Shown: positions 17,397 through 47,149 of the stretch, one piece after another | How positions within the stretch are numbered: position 1 is the first letter of the stretch | How the letters are laid out: each line of letters begins with the position of its first letter | Virus record (IMG/VR): IMGVR_UViG_3300015263_001238 | Coordinates: 1 to 51,849 of that record | Source: a virus | DNA: 51,849 nucleotides | Strand: one strand, 5' to 3' | Made by a program: the position numbers and the translations under genes | The notes under the pieces: generated by a model | What the model was told of the DNA's origin: nothing | Database searches by the model: none | The model's input: the letters and a program-made list of their open reading frames with translations, nothing else

Positions 17397-18581
17397 CTAA
17401 CCTCCCATCAGTAAGAAATGGCGCGCGTATCCCTGGTCTCCTCTGGTTGCCGATTCCAATACCCCTCCCAGGAAATCCTGTTCTTCGAAGTCTTCTAGGG
17501 CCTTGCGCTCGGTGAAACATAGATTCACCGGAACACCTCCGAGGTCAGAGCCGTTGATCGTCTCCAACCCACCCCCCGTCGAATCGAGGCGAACATAAGT
17601 AACTTGAACCCGGGCAGGAGATGTGCCCGTAATCGTACTCCCGTCCGTTAGACCAGATTCGCCTTGGAGGAGGCCGTGGATCGTACGCCCATCCGAAAAC
17701 AGGTGGTCGCGCGTGTCCCCATGAACGATATCTACAAGGTTCTTGGGGGAGAGGGCGGATATACCAGGAACCGTATCGAGTACAGCACTACCGAAAACCC
17801 CAGAGTGCGCGGCCACGACCGTTCCATTGGTTGTAACCGACCCTACAGCAGCCGTCGTGTTGGAAGGAAGTTCTCCGACCCCCAGAACCGATACATCCCC
17901 TCCCAACCCCCCGGAGAGCGTTCCGCCTCCCCATGAGCCCCCGGATAGTGTTTCAGTCGTATCGATGGTGTTCCCAAACGTTCCGGCTTTCAACGCTGTG
18001 ACGCCCATCGTAGACCCTAGGCCCATCTCTGCAAACACGTCCTGATTAGCAGATGTCGAGGCGGCGTAAGCGGTTCCTGCGCCGACCGACAGGTTGATCG
18101 CCGCAACCAGATTTCTCAGGGAGTCGGCCGGAGTGGCACCGATCGAAACGCTTCCATCTACATCGACAAGAACCGATTTAAACGTATAGGTCTTCGTTCC
18201 GATGACGACTGTCTCGGCGTCGTTGGCGTTTCCAACAAGTGTAAGAATACCAGTGGCCGGAGCCGCGAGATCGACAACGATGTCTACCAGGCTGCACGCC
18301 GAGACCAGGACACGTTTTCGTTCCAAAGCATGGAGGTCGGTATTCAGATCATTGACGCCTCGCTGTTCCCCTGTGTCCAACACCGAGGGAACATTGAGGT
18401 CGTCCCACCAGTTCCCCGCTCGATTGTGTAGCAGGGTATTCAACTGAGATCGTACATTGTTCAGGTCGTCTTCGATATGAGAAGGATCGACCTCGAACGC
18501 CGTCTCGGAAGGAGCCGTGGTGTCGGTATACGTTACCGACGGTCGGACCTGGATATCCTGTCGAACAAAAGTACGGCTCAT
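17397..18581 (-). CDS. Tail/fibre-region structural protein (394 aa)
   Basis: The product starts MSRTFVRQDIQVRPSVTYTD. Residues about 30-95 are helical with RSQLNTLLHNRAGNWWDDL, a pattern seen in phage proteins that attach to the baseplate and bear collar-like coils. Residues 110-270 are Gly/Thr/Val-rich and beta-rich (TKTYTF, DSLRNLVAAINL resembling flagellin- or adhesin-like repeats). It is the first adsorption gene downstream of the FtsZ-like gene, 44 bases beyond that gene's stop. Virion role is inferred from neighbours; no firm family. Confidence 0.55.
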   Translation of the reverse strand: MSRTFVRQDIQVRPSVTYTDTTAPSETAFEVDPSHIEDDLNNVRSQLNTLLHNRAGNWWDDLNVPSVLDTGEQRGVNDLNTDLHALERKRVLVSACSLVDIVVDLAAPATGILTLVGNANDAETVVIGTKTYTFKSVLVDVDGSVSIGATPADSLRNLVAAINLSVGAGTAYAASTSANQDVFAEMGLGSTMGVTALKAGTFGNTIDTTETLSGGSWGGGTLSGGLGGDVSVLGVGELPSNTTAAVGSVTTNGTVVAAHSGVFGSAVLDTVPGISALSPKNLVDIVHGDTRDHLFSDGRTIHGLLQGESGLTDGSTITGTSPARVQVTYVRLDSTGGGLETINGSDLGGVPVNLCFTERKALEDFEEQDFLGGVLESATRGDQGYARHFLLMGG

Positions 18582-18625: not shown

Positions 18626-19810
18626 TCAGTGAGAGAGGGCTTCCAATTCATCGAGGCGCGTCTGTGGGGGTTCCAAACCACTCACGATGGTGAAAACCTC
18701 TAGTCCCGGCTTCGACCCTTCGTAGATTCCGGAGTGCAGCGTGATGCCATCATTCCCCAGCGCCCGGCCAAGAGAATGGAAGGCGTAATCAACGTACTCC
18801 ATAGGAATCTCTTTGAATACATCATCATGTGCTACTACAACAAGTCCGGCCGTATTGGCCTTGGAGAGATCGAACCCATCCGCAAGAAGAGAACCTTTCA
18901 GGTTCTTGCGAACCGCCAGGGAGATGTCCTCTCTTCCCCTCCATTTCGGAACTCGTGTTCTCCCGAAAATCATGAGCCCGTTCTTTATGACGCCTTTGTA
19001 GTCGGATCGGTCGAACGTGTTGTAAGGGGAATCCTGAGCCGCCAGGAGATTGAAGGTGTGAAATGTGCCGGTGAACGTGTCATTCGCCACCTTCCAAAAC
19101 AACTTCACGGGCAGGCCCGGATACAGTTCGTGGATCTTGGAGTTGTCCACCAAAACGAGGGAGCTGATCTGGTTCTTCCTGAGCTTGTCGAGCGCCAGGT
19201 TGACCGCCGCCAGGGCGTTCCGCTGCACGCGTGCACCCTCGGATCGCTTTGGTAGCGTCATGATGACGCCTACGCTCTTGTAGAAGGGTTTCTCGATATT
19301 CGTGGACTTGGCGTGTTCACGCATGGCATCGAGAATCACAGGCCACGCCCCTGTCCCCGAACCTCCGCCGCTGCCAACACAAACATAGAGATACTCGGCC
19401 CCTTCCCCCCAAGCCCGCATGAAGAGATCCATGATCTCCTCGTAGCTCTCCTTGGCAGCCAGTTCCCCCTGCGCCGGGTCTTTTCCAGCCCCTCCTCGAT
19501 TGTTGCCAATGACGAGTTTCCGGTCTTCTCCCAGGACAAGACTTTTCAGATCTTGTTCTGTCGTGTTGACCGCGCACACACGCCGATAGCCGAAGTTGTA
19601 GAACGACTCGGCTATCCTCCCTCCTCCCTGGCCGACTCCGACGAAGGCCATCTTCACAGCCGAAGTAAACGTGTCCTTGTTTGGGTCCACTCGTGGACGG
19701 GCGTAGGAGGCGTAGGAGGTCTCGGGTATGTCTACAGTGGGCGCCGGGTCCACACCTATCACATCGTACAGAGGATCTGGAATTTCGGGAAGTTCGCTCA
19801 TGGCCGGCAT
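18626..19810 (-). CDS. FtsZ/tubulin-superfamily GTPase (394 aa)
   Basis: This has the full FtsZ/tubulin layout. A nucleotide-binding loop VGVGQGGGRIAE lies at about 57-68, the T3-like loop GNNRGGAGKDP at about 102-112 and the tubulin signature GSGGGSGTGA at about 146-155. Helix 7 equivalents (FWKVANDTF, NLLAAQD) follow at 238-260. The T7 synergy loop DRSDYKG at 267-273 keeps both aspartates needed to hydrolyse GTP in the neighbouring subunit. The C-terminal domain runs to VFTIVSGLE with a 15-residue tail. An N-terminal extension of about 50 residues precedes the fold. ATG at 19810 sits just after gaggt; ATG at 19801 is the alternative. It should form GTP-dependent filaments in the infected cell. 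It lies between gpJ and fibre genes, so it is probably expressed late. Confidence 0.85.
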   Translation of the reverse strand: MPAMSELPEIPDPLYDVIGVDPAPTVDIPETSYASYARPRVDPNKDTFTSAVKMAFVGVGQGGGRIAESFYNFGYRRVCAVNTTEQDLKSLVLGEDRKLVIGNNRGGAGKDPAQGELAAKESYEEIMDLFMRAWGEGAEYLYVCVGSGGGSGTGAWPVILDAMREHAKSTNIEKPFYKSVGVIMTLPKRSEGARVQRNALAAVNLALDKLRKNQISSLVLVDNSKIHELYPGLPVKLFWKVANDTFTGTFHTFNLLAAQDSPYNTFDRSDYKGVIKNGLMIFGRTRVPKWRGREDISLAVRKNLKGSLLADGFDLSKANTAGLVVVAHDDVFKEIPMEYVDYAFHSLGRALGNDGITLHSGIYEGSKPGLEVFTIVSGLEPPQTRLDELEALSH

Positions 19811-19820
19811 TCTACCTCGG

Positions 19821-33923: not shown

Positions 33924-36209
33924 TCAACATTTGCTGTACCCACACGACTCGCACACGTCACAACCCCCACCACGGGAAAGGGTAGGCGCCTTGCACTGAG
34001 GGCACAGATCGTGCTTGGGCGGAAACTTTGGACGAATCCCTCCATTGCGACGAGCCAAGTAATCTTGAAAAGCTTGCCCTACACCGTCCGGAGCGGAAGA
34101 GATGCGATTCAAACCAAATCCGTTGGAGGCTCCACCTATGTTCCGGAGTTGCTCTGCCAACGCTTCGAGACGCTTATCGGGCCGAATAGGAGAAGGTATG
34201 GCGAGAGCATAGCTTACCGCCCGGCCCAGGGCTTCCATCACCGCAGTCACCTCACTACCGGATTTCCCAGATATGATGAAGCATTCGAACGGCTGCCCGT
34301 CCTCGGGATGATCGTCGATGACGGTATGCACGGTCCCGTGGGCCGTCTTCTTGGAAATCGTTGTTCCATGCCTATAGCCGTCGGCCGGAATGTGACGACG
34401 TGCCTTTGGCAGCATCTCCAATAACTCCTTCGTAGCCTCACCGTGATTCACTTTTCCTACATTCAAGACCTGCGACTTACGACTCCCATCACGGTACACG
34501 GTGATACCTTTGCAGCCTAGCTCCCATGCCAAATCGTAAGCCGCTTCCACGTCTTCCACGGTAGCCGTATTCGGCATGTTGATCGTCTTGCTGACAGCGT
34601 CTTCTACATGCGCCTGGAAGGCCGCCTGCATCTTGACGTGCCAATCGTAACGAATGTCCAACGACGTCCGGAATACCTCTCTCCATTTCTTGGGGACGGC
34701 TTCCAGATCCGACACGCTTCCTTTCTCGGCCACCTCGCGCATCAGATCCTCGCTGTACCACCCCTCTCGTTTAGAGACGTCCACGAATACCTGATTCACG
34801 TCCACCATCTCCATGTCAGCCTGATTGCGGATCATGGCCACACTGAACAAAGGTTCGATGCCGGAGGAACATCCCGCAATGATGGAGATAGAGCCTGTTG
34901 GAGCGATGACTGTAACCGTACTGTTCCGTCGCGGCTTGTCGCCTCGAGCCGCCCATCTGGATTCGGACCAGTGCTCGAACGGACCACGCTTCTCTGCCAA
35001 AACTTCGCTTGCCTTGACCGCCTCCTCATTTATCAGGCGCATGGTCTGCACGCCCAACTTGAGCGCCTGATCACTATCGTAGGGTATCCCACATCGAAGT
35101 AGAAGATCGGCCCAACCCATCACACCAATGCCTATCTTCCGACATTTCCTGGTCATGTCCCCTATCTGGGGAACAGGATAATTGTTGATGGTCAGTACGT
35201 TGTCCAAGAAGTGGACACAATGATGGACGACGCTAGCAAGTCGATCGAAATCCAACACAAGAACACCGTCGCGCTCGAAATAGAACTTGGACAGATTTAC
35301 GGATCCCAGCGTGCAAGCATCGTAGGCGCGCAGCGGAACCTCTCCGCATGGATTGGTAGCTTCGATATCCCCGAGATACGAAGATAGAGGATCCAGAGCG
35401 TTGACGCGATCGATGAAAAATAAGCCCGGTTCTCCGCTATAATGCGCGTTCTGTATGATCCGATCCCAAACATCCCGAGCTTGGTATTTCCCAACGACCG
35501 ATCCCGATACCGGATGGACGATTTCGTACTCTCCACCCGAATAGAGAGACTTCATGAAAGCATCGGTTATACCAACGCTTATATTGAAGTTGGTAAGACC
35601 ATGACCGCATGTCTTGCGACCAAATCCAGAGCAGACGTCGCAAGCAACTCGTTTGCAGTCGATGAACTCGAGAATATCTGGATGGTCTACTCGAAGGATG
35701 CCCATGTTGGCCCCTCGTCGTATCCCCGCCTGTTTCACGCATTCGGTGACAGCGTTGTACATCCGCATGAAAGACACGGGACCGGAGGCGGCCCCGCCTG
35801 TTCCAGCCACGAAATCATTGCGAGGTCGAATCCTACTGTAGCTGAATCCCGTCCCTCCTCCTGTCTTGTGCACGAGGGCCGCGTTCTTCGCGGTGTCCAT
35901 GATGGCATCCATACGATCTTCGATAGGGAGAACAAAACAGGCCGACAGTTGGCCGTCCACTCTCCCTGCATTCGCGAGGCACGGGGTGTTGGGAAGAAAG
36001 TCCAACCGGGCCATCATGTTGTAGAACGCCGTCTCTGCCGCTGTTGGATCCTCTCCGTATTGAATGTCCGCACGAGCTACTGCTTTGGCAACTCGACTGA
36101 ACAATTCCTTCGGAGTCTCTACAACCTCCCCTTTGTCATTCTTGAGCAGGTAACGGCGGCGCAACACCTGGATGGCGTTGTTGTTCAACACAGGTTCGAC
36201 TACGGGCAC
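33924..36209 (-). CDS. nrdJ: Class II (B12-dependent) ribonucleotide reductase (761 aa)
   Basis: It reduces ribonucleotides to deoxyribonucleotides for phage DNA synthesis, using adenosylcobalamin to make the radical. Seen: FLPNTPCLANAG (71-82), the redox cysteine C91 in SACFVLP, KTGGGTGFSYSRIRP, the radical cysteine C288 in NPCGE, its partner C299 in ACTLGSVNLS, TGSISIIAGCSSG, and a C-terminal cysteine cluster (CPQC, CDVCESCGYSKC) that recycles the active site or binds zinc. Length is normal for NrdJ. A Cys-rich insertion (C185-C201) precedes LTNFNISVG. GTG start with ggagg upstream. It is a metabolic gene set inside the tail operon. Confidence 0.9.
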   Translation of the reverse strand: MPVVEPVLNNNAIQVLRRRYLLKNDKGEVVETPKELFSRVAKAVARADIQYGEDPTAAETAFYNMMARLDFLPNTPCLANAGRVDGQLSACFVLPIEDRMDAIMDTAKNAALVHKTGGGTGFSYSRIRPRNDFVAGTGGAASGPVSFMRMYNAVTECVKQAGIRRGANMGILRVDHPDILEFIDCKRVACDVCSGFGRKTCGHGLTNFNISVGITDAFMKSLYSGGEYEIVHPVSGSVVGKYQARDVWDRIIQNAHYSGEPGLFFIDRVNALDPLSSYLGDIEATNPCGEVPLRAYDACTLGSVNLSKFYFERDGVLVLDFDRLASVVHHCVHFLDNVLTINNYPVPQIGDMTRKCRKIGIGVMGWADLLLRCGIPYDSDQALKLGVQTMRLINEEAVKASEVLAEKRGPFEHWSESRWAARGDKPRRNSTVTVIAPTGSISIIAGCSSGIEPLFSVAMIRNQADMEMVDVNQVFVDVSKREGWYSEDLMREVAEKGSVSDLEAVPKKWREVFRTSLDIRYDWHVKMQAAFQAHVEDAVSKTINMPNTATVEDVEAAYDLAWELGCKGITVYRDGSRKSQVLNVGKVNHGEATKELLEMLPKARRHIPADGYRHGTTISKKTAHGTVHTVIDDHPEDGQPFECFIISGKSGSEVTAVMEALGRAVSYALAIPSPIRPDKRLEALAEQLRNIGGASNGFGLNRISSAPDGVGQAFQDYLARRNGGIRPKFPPKHDLCPQCKAPTLSRGGGCDVCESCGYSKC

Positions 36210-36238: not shown

Positions 36239-36967
36239 CTACGCAGTGAGACTGAGCTCTTCGATCATCTCTGGCTGGATCTCGATCTCCATGATCGATA
36301 TATCACTCGCCTGCGCATCGAAATCTCCACCTACCTTATACCTGATAGGAAGGCAGTCGTGAAGAACCCACGCCTTGGCTGGGATACGAATCTTGAATTC
36401 GAATGGACCAAAAGCCGCACTTCCACCAAACCCGGCCAATCCTCCAATAGCGGCCCCTTCGGCTAATGTACTCACAATGGCCTTTCCAAAGTTTCCCGGG
36501 ACACTAGAAGAAATGAGGCCCGAATTCGCCGCTACAAGGGCAGACTGCGCAACTCCTGATACCGATGTAGCGCTTATGGGGTTACGAGCAAAGAACTGTA
36601 AGAGTACCAATGTTCGTCTCGGGGTAGGCCCACCGATGGACACATAACTACCAGCTGATCGGCTCTGGAAGCCTTGGGGATCTCCTGTCACAGCCGCTAC
36701 TGTCCAACGCCAAAAGTCGGAATCCGCGAAAGTGACTCCGCGTGTAAGAGTCATCGGATCGACGTTCGCCTTCTTTATTACCCGGCGTTTGAAATGCCAG
36801 TTACCTTCGTTGAAGTCGTACATGTCGAAGGAGACGCTTGGAGCGGTGATCGACTTGAACCCCGACAACGGGTTGAAGATCGGCAAGGAAAAGCCCTCGA
36901 TAGGGGCCACGTCGAACAGCCAAAAGGGAAATACCTGGAGAAAGTCGGAGAATGCTGTTCTAGCCAC
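36239..36967 (-). CDS. Second gp19-type tail tube-like protein (242 aa)
   Basis: GTG at 36967 follows aaggtg closely and gives VARTAFSDFLQVFPFWLFDV; a longer frame would run through the terminator and the upstream gene. It shares with the tube gene the strands MTLTRGV..(S)DFWRW and CLPIRYKVGGDFDAQASDIS, so it is a paralogue of the gp19 fold. A 75-residue Gly/Ala/Ser-rich insertion (about 130-200, SVSGVAQSALVAANSGLISS and following) is extra. By analogy with T4 gp54 it may start or cap the tube rather than build it. It lies just after the terminator, so it is likely less expressed. Confidence 0.7.
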   Translation of the reverse strand: MARTAFSDFLQVFPFWLFDVAPIEGFSLPIFNPLSGFKSITAPSVSFDMYDFNEGNWHFKRRVIKKANVDPMTLTRGVTFADSDFWRWTVAAVTGDPQGFQSRSAGSYVSIGGPTPRRTLVLLQFFARNPISATSVSGVAQSALVAANSGLISSSVPGNFGKAIVSTLAEGAAIGGLAGFGGSAAFGPFEFKIRIPAKAWVLHDCLPIRYKVGGDFDAQASDISIMEIEIQPEMIEELSLTA

Positions 36968-37011
36968 AGAACACCTTCGAGTTGATGTCCACCATACTAC
37001 CGCATCAAACC

Positions 37012-37041
37012 AAAAACGGGCAGGACCACGTGGTCTGCCCG
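37012..37041 (-). terminator. Rho-independent terminator after tail tube gene
   Basis: On the minus strand a stem of about 12 pairs (CGGGCA with TGCCCG, then GACC with GGTC, one bulged base, ACGT-type loop) is followed at once by TTTTT. It starts 25 bases after the tube stop codon. Its tip is the repeated palindrome GACCACGTGGTC at 37024-37035. Confidence 0.85.
37024..37035. repeat. Palindrome GACCACGTGGTC at terminator tip
   Basis: Exact copy of the 12-mer found at three other places. Here it forms the distal half of the terminator stem downstream of the tail tube gene. Confidence 0.8.
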
Positions 37042-37065
37042 TCTCATGTTTCCATCGAGGTGCTG

Positions 37066-37644
37066 TTACGCCGGGGGTTGGTGCTCTTCGACCTCGAAGT
37101 GTTCGTAGGCCAGATCCAGTTCCATGATGGAGATCTCGGACGCCGTAGCGTCTAGATCGCCCGCGACCTTGTGACGAATCGGAAAGCACTCGCGAACATG
37201 ATAGGTACGTCCTGGAAGGTCTGTGTTGAGATTGGTCTTGTTCGCTTGACCGCCCGAAGCCGGGGCCGAGCGGACGAGAGACGCATCTCTGTGAAAGTGC
37301 CGGATAGCGAGATCCGCACGGTACTCGTTGGCAGGACCGGCGTCAGCACCTTCGATAACCAGCCGGAGCCAGCGCCAGAAAGTACCATCGCCACGCGCCA
37401 CACCACGAGAGAGCGTGATGTCGGACATGCTCGGGTTACCCGGGTACTTCCGGGTGTAGACCATTTGACCCTCTTTGTACTCGACCGCCTCGATGGTCGC
37501 TTCTGGGGTTGTCACGGCGGAGAACCCGGCATCAGGTCTGCCGTTCCCTGTGACTAGATCTACGTCGGAGTTACCGTCCACGGCGGCCACGAGAACGTGG
37601 AATCTCATTGAGTGGAGAAAGTCTTGTGCTAGAGCGCGAGCCAT
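37066..37644 (-). CDS. Tail tube protein, T4 gp19-like (192 aa)
   Basis: Length and motifs fit the gp19 tube family: an N-terminal FHVLVAAVDG, GFSAVTTPEATIEAVEYKEG, the conserved YTRKYPGNPSMSDITLSRGV, DGTFWRWL and the closing CFPIRHKVAGDLDATASEIS. It polymerises into the inner tube of the contractile tail. A very strong ribosome-binding site (gaggaggt) and a terminator shortly after the stop agree with high expression. It lies downstream of the sheath gene as usual, separated from it by one gene. Confidence 0.9.
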   Translation of the reverse strand: MARALAQDFLHSMRFHVLVAAVDGNSDVDLVTGNGRPDAGFSAVTTPEATIEAVEYKEGQMVYTRKYPGNPSMSDITLSRGVARGDGTFWRWLRLVIEGADAGPANEYRADLAIRHFHRDASLVRSAPASGGQANKTNLNTDLPGRTYHVRECFPIRHKVAGDLDATASEISIMELDLAYEHFEVEEHQPPA

Positions 37645-38390: not shown

Positions 38391-40886
38391 CTAGCCCAAC
38401 GTGATTTGGGTAAAGCGGAATCTCACGAATTCTGCCGGAGTATTTGCGGCGACACCGACGTCGATGATGACCTGGCCCGCCGCTACGCTGGAAGCATCGT
38501 TGTTCGATTCGTCCACGATAACGAAGAACGCCTCGGAGGGAGATCCTCCGGCGAACAAGCCCTCGTTGAACTGGTTGTTGAGGAACCCTTGGAGTTGCGC
38601 CTTGATCTTGGCCCACAGAGCAGGACCATTGTTCTCGAACACGATCCAATGGGTCGCGTTGTACACCGACTTTTCCAGGAACATGAAGAGGCGGCGCACG
38701 TTGATGTACCTCCACTCGATTTCCTGAGCAATGGTCCGAACTCCCCATACTGCTAATCCCGTATGTGGGGAACTGATTAACGGATTGATCTTGTTCGGGT
38801 ACACGAAATCCCGCTCGGACGGGGTAGGATTCAATTCCAGTCCGAGGAGAAACCGGAGTTGGCCGTCCACAGTACCGCCGGGGGCTTTTCCGACATTCTT
38901 GGACGCATCGGTACGAGCGTAGATGCCTGCAATATGCCCAACCGCGGGCATCGTCAATGGCCGATTGTCCGCGAGAGGGTCTGCAACCCGAACCCACGGC
39001 CAGTAGACGGCGGCAAACTTCGAAAACCGGCCCAGATCGAACCGGAACCAATCCACAGCCTCTTGCGCAGAAGAGGCCACAGGCGGCTGGAGGATGGCAA
39101 AGCGATCACCCCCGGAAGGCTGCGTAGCGCGCCCATCCACGTAATCGAGGATATCTCCAGTGATAGTGACATCTCCGACAAAATCGGGAACGACGATTTG
39201 CATCAGTTCCTCGATCCGGTTCAGGGCAAACAGTCCTTCGGCATTCGCTTCTAGGAGCGCGGCGTTGGAAATCTGATTCCGTCCGTAGGTACCAGAAGAG
39301 AAGGTACCATTGGTTCCACCCGTGAAGGATTCAATATGCTGCGATTCCACCGCCGCAGTGCTGTAACTCAAAGTCACGAGCGTAGTCGCGTCGATGGGAT
39401 TGAGCAACGTAACGACGATTGCGCCGGAGGTGTAATTGATCGTGTTCGTGCCTGCGGCATCTACCGAACCAATCAGATTCCCCGCCCCGTCATCCGTGAC
39501 GGTAAGAGAAGCTCCGAGTGTATCGGTGTAGGAGATGACGACCGATCGAGGAGAGACCGGAGCGGCAGATGCTGTCGTCGCGGTAAACTCCCGGCCCGCC
39601 GTCGATTCATCCCCACCACCGATGATCTCGGTCTTCGCTATACCGTCGATTTGAAGAGGAGCCTCATCTCCACCCGGCTCATTGACCGTTACGTAGTCGG
39701 ACAGCTCATTGATGACATCAGGGAAATACTGTGGATCGGAGGAATCCGAGAAGCTGAGACCCTCGTAGGTCTCCACGATATCAAAATTGCCCGTAGAGGT
39801 GTTCAGTAGCAAGACATTGAACTTGTATCGTGAATACGAGTTCGTACTGGCGGTGTAATAGTCCTGATCCCCCTCGATAGAGATACGCAAGTCATTGGCC
39901 CAAGTTCCCGCCGAGATAGGATCGAGGTCCCAGGCATAGATCTGATAAGTGGCCAGGAGGGGGGCCTGATCGTGGGCTGCGGTAGATAGGGTGATCGACC
40001 ACGCGCCAGTCGTGTAGTCGATAGCCCCCGGACCGGTGAGAACAGTGCCGGCGGGGAAAACTCCCAATCCATCGTCAGTTACACTGAGATCCGCGGAAGC
40101 CGGGGTGTAATCCACCGTGAAGGCGCCAGGGACGCCATTCGGGATATCGACACCAGCAAATTCTACCGAGAAAAACCCAGATCGATGATCGATGGTGACC
40201 ACCGTTCCAGCGCCGTTGGTCGCGCTCGCGATGGCGGTAATCGCCGGAACTGCGAGAGTCGTGGGGGTGGCGCCATCCGGATCGAAGTTCAGAGTGAACG
40301 TTCCCGGGACCACGGCGAACTGTTCGGGGTCGTAGGCGGGAATGCTCGCCGGATTGATCCTACCTTCGTAGACAGCCGTCGCAGCCACGAGACTAACGTT
40401 GCCGCTGTCATCACGGTTGCGAATGGCTTCGGCCGCGACCGGGGTCCCGTCCTCACGCCATCGCAAGGTCACCGAAGCAGGAACCAGCGGCGATGCGCCG
40501 CCATTCACGTTGAGTAGAGTAGTCAGGTCCGTCTGTGAGAAGGCGGTAGTAACTCCATCTCCAGTCTCCAATACCTGATCGGTCCACTGGCTGTCGATCA
40601 GAGCATCCGCGGTAAGCGCGTCCGAAGGGACAACACGAACAACGAACGCACGACGACCGCCGTTGGCAAAGTAGGCAGCCATGGACAGCGGCAAGAAGGA
40701 ATCACTAACGATGGGTCCGAATGTCCGAACGAAGTTCTCGAACGACGTTACGAGAGTAGCTACGTTGGTGGGCCCCTTCTGCGTGAATCCTACGGCTCCC
40801 AGATTCGATGTCGAAACCGCCTGGATGACCTGTACCTGGGAAGGTACTTCCTCGATGAAGACGCCTGGACTAAGAATCTCGGCCAT
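38391..40886 (-). CDS. Tail sheath protein (831 aa)
   Basis: The N-terminus MAEILSPGVFIEEVPSQVQ with AVGFTQKGPTNVATLVTSF, VRTFGP and AAYFANGGRRAFVVRV is the sheath signature. The C-terminus has the domain that locks subunits (YINVRRLFMFLEKSV, WIVFENN, LWAKIKAQLQGFLNNQFNEG, AFFVIVDESNN, TPAEFVRFRFTQI). A middle region of about 400 residues holds several TLTVTDDG..G-type beta modules, an enlargement over the usual 480-660 residues. It forms the contractile outer sleeve. Strong identification. Confidence 0.95.
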   Translation of the reverse strand: MAEILSPGVFIEEVPSQVQVIQAVSTSNLGAVGFTQKGPTNVATLVTSFENFVRTFGPIVSDSFLPLSMAAYFANGGRRAFVVRVVPSDALTADALIDSQWTDQVLETGDGVTTAFSQTDLTTLLNVNGGASPLVPASVTLRWREDGTPVAAEAIRNRDDSGNVSLVAATAVYEGRINPASIPAYDPEQFAVVPGTFTLNFDPDGATPTTLAVPAITAIASATNGAGTVVTIDHRSGFFSVEFAGVDIPNGVPGAFTVDYTPASADLSVTDDGLGVFPAGTVLTGPGAIDYTTGAWSITLSTAAHDQAPLLATYQIYAWDLDPISAGTWANDLRISIEGDQDYYTASTNSYSRYKFNVLLLNTSTGNFDIVETYEGLSFSDSSDPQYFPDVINELSDYVTVNEPGGDEAPLQIDGIAKTEIIGGGDESTAGREFTATTASAAPVSPRSVVISYTDTLGASLTVTDDGAGNLIGSVDAAGTNTINYTSGAIVVTLLNPIDATTLVTLSYSTAAVESQHIESFTGGTNGTFSSGTYGRNQISNAALLEANAEGLFALNRIEELMQIVVPDFVGDVTITGDILDYVDGRATQPSGGDRFAILQPPVASSAQEAVDWFRFDLGRFSKFAAVYWPWVRVADPLADNRPLTMPAVGHIAGIYARTDASKNVGKAPGGTVDGQLRFLLGLELNPTPSERDFVYPNKINPLISSPHTGLAVWGVRTIAQEIEWRYINVRRLFMFLEKSVYNATHWIVFENNGPALWAKIKAQLQGFLNNQFNEGLFAGGSPSEAFFVIVDESNNDASSVAAGQVIIDVGVAANTPAEFVRFRFTQITLG

Positions 40887-45634: not shown

Positions 45635-47149
45635 TTACAAGTTGATGATACGAACCTGCCCGTAGAAGTCAGGCCGAAGGATCTTCTTGGCGTAACGAGT
45701 ACGGAGACCCTTACGGAACGAGAAGTCGTTCGGGTCGAGGAACGTCGGGGTGACCTGAAGAGGTATGTACGGCGCCCACACGTACCCCGCATCGAGATAC
45801 GATCCCCCCTTTAGGCCGAGTAGCATCTGGTCGCGGGCGAAGAACGGGTCTTCGTAGATCAACCACTTGTTCGACATCGTACCAGTCTTGTAGATCCCGA
45901 ACTGACCGTGCTGAACGATCGGCCGCGGTACATCTACCCCGGTAAGATCTCCCGCGCCTGCGGAGGGGCCACCCGGAGTCACCCATAGAGGACGGAAGTC
46001 GCCATGGCTCTGGAGCGAGGTGAGAAGTGCCGAAATCTCGGGCGACGTAACGATCCAGTTCGCAGGTGCCCGGAGGGTCTTCTTGTGAATCAGATTCGAC
46101 ACTGTCGCCAAAGTAGTGATCAGCGATCGAAGATGATCCAGTTCGTTGATCCCGGCCGGAGGAACACGATCGAAAGAAGACGTGGTTCCGGTAGACGCCA
46201 GGAACAGGTCGTCGATGACTTCTCGATCGATCTCCAGTGCGATCTCCTGGGCCACGGCAGAGACGATCTCCGTCTCGGCATCAAGGCCGTGGAACGCTCG
46301 AAGATCTTCCGCGGCCTCGCTGGACCAAAGGGCCTTGAGCCGACGAGACTGCGCCTCGACCGCGGCCTTCTTCACATCGAGATTGATCTGCGGCACCCTC
46401 GAGGAAAGCTCCCCATCGAAGGTATAGTACGCCTTGATTTGATTCCCGTTCGCTGCCGCAGCGGTGAACTTGAACGCGGAGATGGCCCCGTTCGAGTAGT
46501 TCACGGTACCGGCGATGACGTCACCAGTGAAACCACCGGCGCCGTTGTCGGTCGCTTCCTGTACCGTAGATCCATCTACCGCCGAAATCTCACGAACGAC
46601 GAGAGAGTACCCCCTCGACGCATCCAACGGACGGACAGGAGTAAACCCTAGAGTCGCAGCCAGCGCTGTACCGCCGCCACCAAAAGCCGCTCCATCGCCC
46701 GTGGCCAAGATCTCACCCTTGACGGACTCTGACGAGTAGTCGCGATCGAAATCCCGTGGGAACACCGAGCCGGCAACGGTTCCGCCCTTGGTAGTGCCAT
46801 AAATGTAGTCCAGGAAGAAGACTGCCCCTATCGGCGCGGTCATTGGCTGGACCGATACGATTTCGTTCGCGATCAGGTTCGGGAACACCCTACGAAGCAC
46901 CGGGAAGATGAACTTCGTAAAGCTTCCGACGTTGATCGTACGGGTATCCTCCGTCATGTTCTTGAGGTGCACGGCCTGATTTTCGAACAGCATCGCCATG
47001 CAACCGAGAATGTAGCGGTCGGTCTCCGTACGGTCAGGCAAGCCCTCCAAGAGAGGACTCCACTTTTGGACCAACTTGCCAACGTAACTCAGGTCGGCAA
47101 CCGATCCCCGGCCCTCCTCGAGCCGAATTTTTCGCGCTTCTACGCCCAT
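45635..47149 (-). CDS. Major capsid protein, T4 gp23-like (504 aa)
   Basis: This fits the gp23 family: N-terminal WSPLLEGLPDRTETDRYILG, the conserved FPVLRRVFPNLIANEIVSVQ PM followed by GAVFFLDYIYG, AAEDLRAFHGLDAETEIVS, the A-domain (ANWIVTSPEISALL) and the C-terminal YVWAPYIPLQVTPTFLDPND. It has the HK97 fold and makes the head shell. Aaggaga lies just upstream of the ATG, and the terminator downstream suits high expression. It follows the protease/scaffold gene, the usual gp21-gp22-gp23 order. Confidence 0.95.
   Translation of the reverse strand: MGVEARKIRLEEGRGSVADLSYVGKLVQKWSPLLEGLPDRTETDRYILGCMAMLFENQAVHLKNMTEDTRTINVGSFTKFIFPVLRRVFPNLIANEIVSVQPMTAPIGAVFFLDYIYGTTKGGTVAGSVFPRDFDRDYSSESVKGEILATGDGAAFGGGGTALAATLGFTPVRPLDASRGYSLVVREISAVDGSTVQEATDNGAGGFTGDVIAGTVNYSNGAISAFKFTAAAANGNQIKAYYTFDGELSSRVPQINLDVKKAAVEAQSRRLKALWSSEAAEDLRAFHGLDAETEIVSAVAQEIALEIDREVIDDLFLASTGTTSSFDRVPPAGINELDHLRSLITTLATVSNLIHKKTLRAPANWIVTSPEISALLTSLQSHGDFRPLWVTPGGPSAGAGDLTGVDVPRPIVQHGQFGIYKTGTMSNKWLIYEDPFFARDQMLLGLKGGSYLDAGYVWAPYIPLQVTPTFLDPNDFSFRKGLRTRYAKKILRPDFYGQVRIINL

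Follow-up and report, generated by a model that had tools for sequence, protein, structure and literature searches.

A distinct viral family of tubulin GTPases, separate from PhuZ and FtsZ, in a T4-type-head, contractile-tailed phage and its relatives

Two groups of phage tubulins are named in the literature, PhuZ and TubZ (PMC7950403, PMC7824862), and a 2026 review covers PhuZ, with TubZ not being named (PMC13282480). Tubulins have been noted only in phages with large genomes (PMC7950403), and PhuZ serves to transport capsids and to centre the phage nucleus (PMC13282480). Work on the phage cytoskeleton rests on PhuZ, which is tied to the phage nucleus, and on the TubZ of one plasmid-like phage. 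PhuZ had been taken, in an initial annotation of the DNA described here, to be encoded away from virion genes. This does not hold for two phages: in phiKZ, 9.5 kb separate the sheath gene from the start of phuZ (gp39), which follows a virion protein gene at a distance of 2.6 kb, and phuZ of JM-2012 is found 4.6 kb from its sheath gene.

The window, i.e. the whole stretch of DNA analysed, is a 51.8-kb IMG/VR virus record. On its minus strand, genes follow in the order portal, S77 prohead protease, gp23-type major capsid protein (MCP), adaptor, sheath, tube, RNR large subunit, tape measure, hub, spike, gp25, gp6/gpJ-type wedge, tubulin and fibre-like genes (Table 1), and the window belongs to a T4-type-head, contractile-tailed phage. 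The RNR large subunit gene (33924-36209), with a weakly matched B12-type insertion domain, sits inside the tail cluster, after the tube genes and before that of the tape measure protein. Two tandem tube-like paralogues are present (36239-37189 and 37066-37644), being ~44 kb apart in the related record G009.

The tubulin gene is encoded on the minus strand, which the initial annotation did not state, from the ATG at 19810 to the stop at 18626, and a 10-bp gap separates it from the stop of the upstream wedge gene. The placement originally given, between gpJ and fibre genes, is right on the upstream side, where a gp6/gpJ-type wedge is found, while the downstream genes are virion-like and only weakly identified. 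Approximately residues 93-230 of the first downstream product (17397-18581) match an insertion carried by the sheath protein in G003, G007 and G008, which suggests that a virion-surface domain may be shared between this protein and the sheath of the relatives.

Table 1. Coordinates of the tubulin gene, its motifs and neighbouring genes in the window, and of the relatives with an insert (last row, positions in their own sequences)
Feature	Coordinates	Strand	Evidence or remark
Major capsid protein, T4 gp23 type	45635..47149	-	phrog_138, E 2e-67
Tail sheath	38391..40886	-	phrog_23, E 4e-51; Phage_sheath_1
Tape measure protein, 1840 aa	25698..31220	-	Profile match
Upstream neighbour: baseplate wedge protein, gp6/gpJ type, 731 aa	19821..22016	-	phrog_219, E 1.2e-32; syntenic in relatives
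Shine-Dalgarno-like GAGGT before the tubulin ATG	19814..19818	-	Sequence read
Tubulin/FtsZ-superfamily GTPase gene	18626..19810	-	394 aa, stop included; ORF, Pfam, PDB, AF2, Foldseek
Disordered N-terminal tail, residues 1-45	19676..19810	-	AF2 pLDDT <50 at 1-25 and 32-40; not in FtsZ/PhuZ alignments
Tail motif LPEIP, residues 7-11, then DPLY, 12-15	19778..19792	-	Motif count in tails; recurrent in the family
Tail motif VDIPE, residues 26-30	19721..19735	-	Alignments and AF2; slightly ordered in the model
T1 loop GVGQGGGR, residues 58-65	19616..19639	-	Conserved in relatives
T3 loop GGAGKD, residues 106-111	19478..19495	-	Alignment; near-invariant in the viral tubulin family
T4 G-box GGGSGTG, residues 148-154	19349..19369	-	Alignment
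T7 catalytic loop NTFDRSD, residues 264-270	19001..19021	-	Alignment; insert site N264/T265 of relatives is 19019/19018 here
Downstream neighbour, 394 aa	17397..18581	-	Comparison with relatives; conserved beside the baseplate or in the fibre region
ORFs with T7-loop insert	L003 9611-12274; L040 9650-12271; L042 9605-11878		Intein-like ends, LAGLIDADG-like motifs

A complete FtsZ/tubulin GTPase had been recognized at this locus, and the Pfam match, the T loops and the AF2 fold all agree with it. The 394-aa protein matches PF00091 (Tubulin) with an E-value of 2.5e-15, at 57.7 bits against a curated cut-off of 33 bits, while the TubZ-like_C Pfam reaches 14 bits against a cut-off of 26 bits. A single-sequence phmmer search of the PDB has an archaeal FtsZ as the top match (E 3.7e-19), and with a profile of 11 relatives the top match turns to TubZ/RepX (E 5e-29). 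The best PHROG match is phrog_17961 (E 2.7e-7), the function of which is not known. The AF2 model obtained from 23 family sequences has a pLDDT of 85.7 and a pTM of 0.85 (an earlier model from 4 sequences, with a pLDDT of 59, was set aside). It shows the two-domain tubulin fold, and its top Foldseek match, along the full chain, is B. thuringiensis TubZ (E 8e-26, TM 0.72-0.76), followed by CetZ and FtsZ.

The T1, T3, T4 and T7 loops (the last being TFDRSD, with two acidic residues) are ordered and conserved across 23 relatives, and the consensus over the 23 members is GGA[GA]KD for T3, GGG[ST]GxG for T4 and [ST]FDxx[DE] for T7. Exceptions in T7 were seen in a few distant members, with AFDxxD in L084, TCDxxD in L087 and the second acid lost in L098, the most distant of the 23 relatives and the sole one without it. 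Values of dN/dS range from 0.03 to 0.17 among tubulin relatives, for pairs with usable dS. We conclude that the window gene is a real tubulin/FtsZ GTPase under purifying selection. As initially proposed, its product is predicted from the intact loops, the fold and this selection to bind GTP and polymerise.

TubZ/RepX of Bacillales plasmids (PDB 2xka, 4ei7) is the best match both by full-length fold (TM ~0.75) and by profile. It has a similar length, shares the FDxxE/D form of T7 and the LP..E and DN motifs, and shows 22-25% identity, but the viral tubulin has a disordered N-terminal tail and lacks a long C-terminal one. PhuZ of Chimalliviridae (phiKZ gp39) is likewise phage-encoded, found in large genomes and devoid of a TubR partner. 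However, identity to PhuZ is only 14-17%, the T4, T5 and T6 of PhuZ are diverged whereas those of the viral tubulin are canonical, and the window protein does not have the long acidic C-terminal tail of PhuZ. The C-terminal tail is indeed short, as noted initially, since the last helix of the AF2 model spans residues 383-393 and the chain stops one residue later. FtsZ shares the PF00091 domain and a canonical T4, with 22-26% core identity, and differs in T7, which is N-h-D-F-A-D in FtsZ and TFDxxD in the viral tubulin. The window protein is also without an FtsZ-type C-terminal peptide, having instead an N-terminal tail with a look-alike motif.

In a first tree, 21 viral members form one group (100/99), with PhuZ (100/99) and FtsZ (100/100) as separate groups and plasmid TubZ as sister to the viral family (96/91). 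Joining the viral family with FtsZ (AU p 0.056) or with PhuZ (AU p 0.067) was not formally rejected. In a second tree, long rows were removed and gp138 of Bacillus phage G and more members were added. The viral family is recovered at 83/96, with PhuZ apart at 100/100 and FtsZ apart at 98/99, while the family plus FtsZ is equally likely (AU p 0.57). The sister relation with TubZ, favoured in the first tree, was lost with these additions and is not supported in the second. These results show a distinct viral tubulin family, separate from PhuZ and FtsZ and found only in viral contigs here. By fold and profile, TubZ is its likeliest neighbour, on a branch that differs between the trees. The difference from PhuZ claimed by the initial annotation is borne out by the separate clades in both trees, and a PhuZ ortholog is ruled out by tree and loops. 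A recently captured, non-functional copy of a host ftsZ, for which superfamily membership is the only point in favour, has practically no chance of being the right explanation. It is refuted by the monophyly of the viral family, by the low core identity to FtsZ and by the dN/dS values, and the full-length fold is TubZ-like. Phylogeny, which had been suggested as the check on such a copy, gives instead a separate viral family under selection.

We found no study of this family in the literature searched, prior mention being possible, and its members are probably present in UniProt as 'FtsZ' and in PHROGs as proteins of unknown function. The best viral fold match is A0A6J5RW92 (E 2e-36; 26% identity), annotated as 'FtsZ cell division GTPase' of an uncultured Caudovirales phage. 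This protein, by annotation only, and phrog_17961 probably belong to the viral tubulin family and are unstudied. Phage G gp138 (putative FtsZ-like) was the sole isolate match with a family member as query (24%), and its long branch groups weakly with plasmid TubZ (90/70), membership in the family not being established. In this cultivable phage, gp138 (L203:3989-5119) is preceded by a gene of 97-98 aa, as in TubR-TubZ loci.

The N-terminal extension of ~50 residues noted initially is present and disordered in the AF2 model, and a tail precedes the core in every close member of the family. The pattern [ILMV]P[DENA].[PLV] was found in 18 of 27 tails, whereas 2000 shuffles gave 2.7 on average and 8 at most, although the pattern was picked after the sequences were seen and the enrichment is inflated by relatedness. 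This motif may resemble the IPxF core of the FtsZ C-terminal peptide, which we regard as a lead only. Phage proteins targeting FtsZ exist, and the viral tubulin could act as a decoy or poison for host FtsZ, blocking cell division, if the acidic [DE]hxhP motifs of the tail do recall that core. We consider this improbable: the full catalytic set and 55-70% identity are kept across phages of 51-65% GC, the family is not an FtsZ descendant in the first tree and, to our knowledge, phage FtsZ inhibitors are small proteins that are not GTPases.

Some members carry additional segments. An insert of ~330 aa is found inside the T7 loop, between N264 and T265, in 3 of the 9 close relatives (L003, L040 and L042), at an identical site, being absent from L041, L002, L005, L006, L039 and the window. 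Pfam detected no intein domain in it, but a block A-like CVDAxTEALTxRGW, TPxHRW, a C-terminal VTGN|T, LAGLIDADG-like motifs and a clean extein junction suggest that it is intein-like. We see such inserts in the T7 loop as a further sign of an essential GTPase site. A 1058-aa protein of G005 (L036:6566-9742) has a weak match to an intein splicing domain, and inteins may recur in this phage group. Another segment, a conserved N-terminal domain of ~85 aa (PPPFHxL...SGFxVxDLLQQL), is fused to the tubulin in L003, L040 and L041. This domain had no PHROG match, and a free-standing paralogue was found at L041:20824-21078, in the same contig as the fused copy.

Scans of viral contigs revealed nine loci above ~55% identity and then many at 28-45%, and in the widest scan 224 stretches encode a relative, a count that rests on only two peptide patterns. 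No relative was found by pattern scans of ~85,000 prokaryote species genomes, a collection that would show few plasmid-like prophages. With the window protein as query against 50,697 phage records (INPHARED), there was no relative apart from FtsZ-like matches in unannotated gut contigs. Related records reach 185-194 kb, the carriers being phages larger than 180 kb with pol A-type replication.

The position of the gene had been read as a hint of a job in virion assembly, progeny positioning or interference with host FtsZ, and we mapped the window genes on nine related records. The head and tail module is syntenic with the window in G002, G003, G005, G007, G008 and, for the part present, G009, but only the window and its near-copy G001 have the tubulin immediately behind the wedge gene. 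Its distance downstream of the wedge gene is ~15 kb in G003, G007 and G008, where the tubulin lies among fibre genes, ~39 kb in G002 and ~45 kb in G005, if this record is circularly permuted. In G009 the tubulin is one of the non-structural genes that fill ~44 kb from one tube-like gene to the other, ahead of the tape measure, and in G004 no gene neighbour of the tubulin is common with the window. The G004 contig encodes a GpA-type terminase, and its tubulin shares 67% identity with that of the window; almost all other genes of the contig are unrelated. Among 15 more distant carriers, many of them fragments, no MCP homologue or sheath domain was detected, and in two distant groups the tubulin is 3-5 kb from the portal gene. 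In most of the distant genome pairs, the tubulin ranks first or second by identity among the proteins in common, comparable to the MCP. The protein is thus kept, while its genomic place is mobile.

A role in virion or tail assembly would be consistent with the arrangement of the window lineage, where the gene starts 10 bp after the wedge gene and runs with virion genes, with the location among fibre genes in three relatives and with the proximity to the portal gene in some distant members. We give it a slim chance, since the position varies even between phages that have the complete tail module in common, the 15 distant carriers have no detectable sheath and there is no fused virion domain common to the family, the 85-aa domain being present in three members only. 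Because the place varies among relatives with the same head and tail module, position is no guide to function: the tail-cluster place is peculiar to the window lineage and is no clue to what the protein does. The gene, being on the strand of the virion genes, is probably expressed together with them, and its product is probably not part of the tail.

The closeness to TubZ/RepX, the top match by profile and by full-length fold and the sister group in the first tree, would fit a TubZ-type partition filament, by which the phage would be retained outside the chromosome (as a pseudolysogen or plasmid-prophage) when cells divide; TubZ of c-st has this role, and there is precedent in c-st and in jumbo phages (PMC7950403, PMC7824862). 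We regard this as possible but unlikely. In the TubZ plasmids compared (c-st, pXO1 and pBtoxis, as toxin or virulence elements, were left out), a small gene of ~100-120 aa occupies the usual TubR place directly before TubZ, whereas in the nine related records there is no conserved gene upstream of the viral tubulin and no TubR. We were not able to find a tubC-type iteron array beside the viral tubulin at three loci. The second tree does not support the TubZ sister relation, and no family member appeared in the ~85,000 prokaryote species genomes, where few plasmid-like prophages are expected.

We suggest, with an even chance of being right, that the protein forms a GTP-dependent tubulin filament that, in phages lacking a phage nucleus, serves to position their DNA or capsids. 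A tblastn search for chimallin in 10 records, which are fragmentary and where a remote chimallin could be missed, found none, and no Rpb2 domain was found in 7 of 8 records. The exception is G004, the record behind L005, where a single 2059-aa ORF (L023:2979-9158) contains Rpb2 and Rpb1 domains, i.e. a fused beta-beta' RNA polymerase. Subunits would bind GTP between neighbouring monomers, and the T7 loop of one subunit (D267 and D270) would trigger hydrolysis in the next, the filament growing and shrinking as a result of this cycle. The disordered N-terminal tail, with its hydrophobic-P-acidic-x-P motif, may take the role of the C-terminal tail of PhuZ, docking on a partner or on the adjacent subunit. 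Within the crowded host cell, empty capsids or replicating DNA of the phage would be positioned by the filaments, which would do the work of PhuZ in phages that lack a nucleus. Since identity to PhuZ is so low, the analogy of function draws only on phage size and on the lack of a partition partner. Against this positioning role we count that the nearest family by profile and fold, TubZ, is a plasmid partitioner, and that the fused RNA polymerase of G004 implies differing lifestyles among carriers. No conserved adaptor tying filaments to DNA or capsids was found in the related records.

More broadly, and with somewhat less than an even chance, we propose a third major phage tubulin lineage, occurring widely among uncultivated phages and not depending on the phage nucleus. 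Its disordered N-terminal arm, with the conserved motif, would set filament contacts or cargo, and the filament would move genomes or capsids in ordinary T4-type-head myoviruses and other phages. That a large myovirus lineage, with no nucleus genes detected in it, keeps a third, intact tubulin family as one of its best-conserved proteins, and that more than 200 stretches in viral metagenomes match this family, suggests that active intracellular positioning may be far commoner among phages than thought. The viral tubulin family makes it testable whether such positioning needs a nucleus at all.
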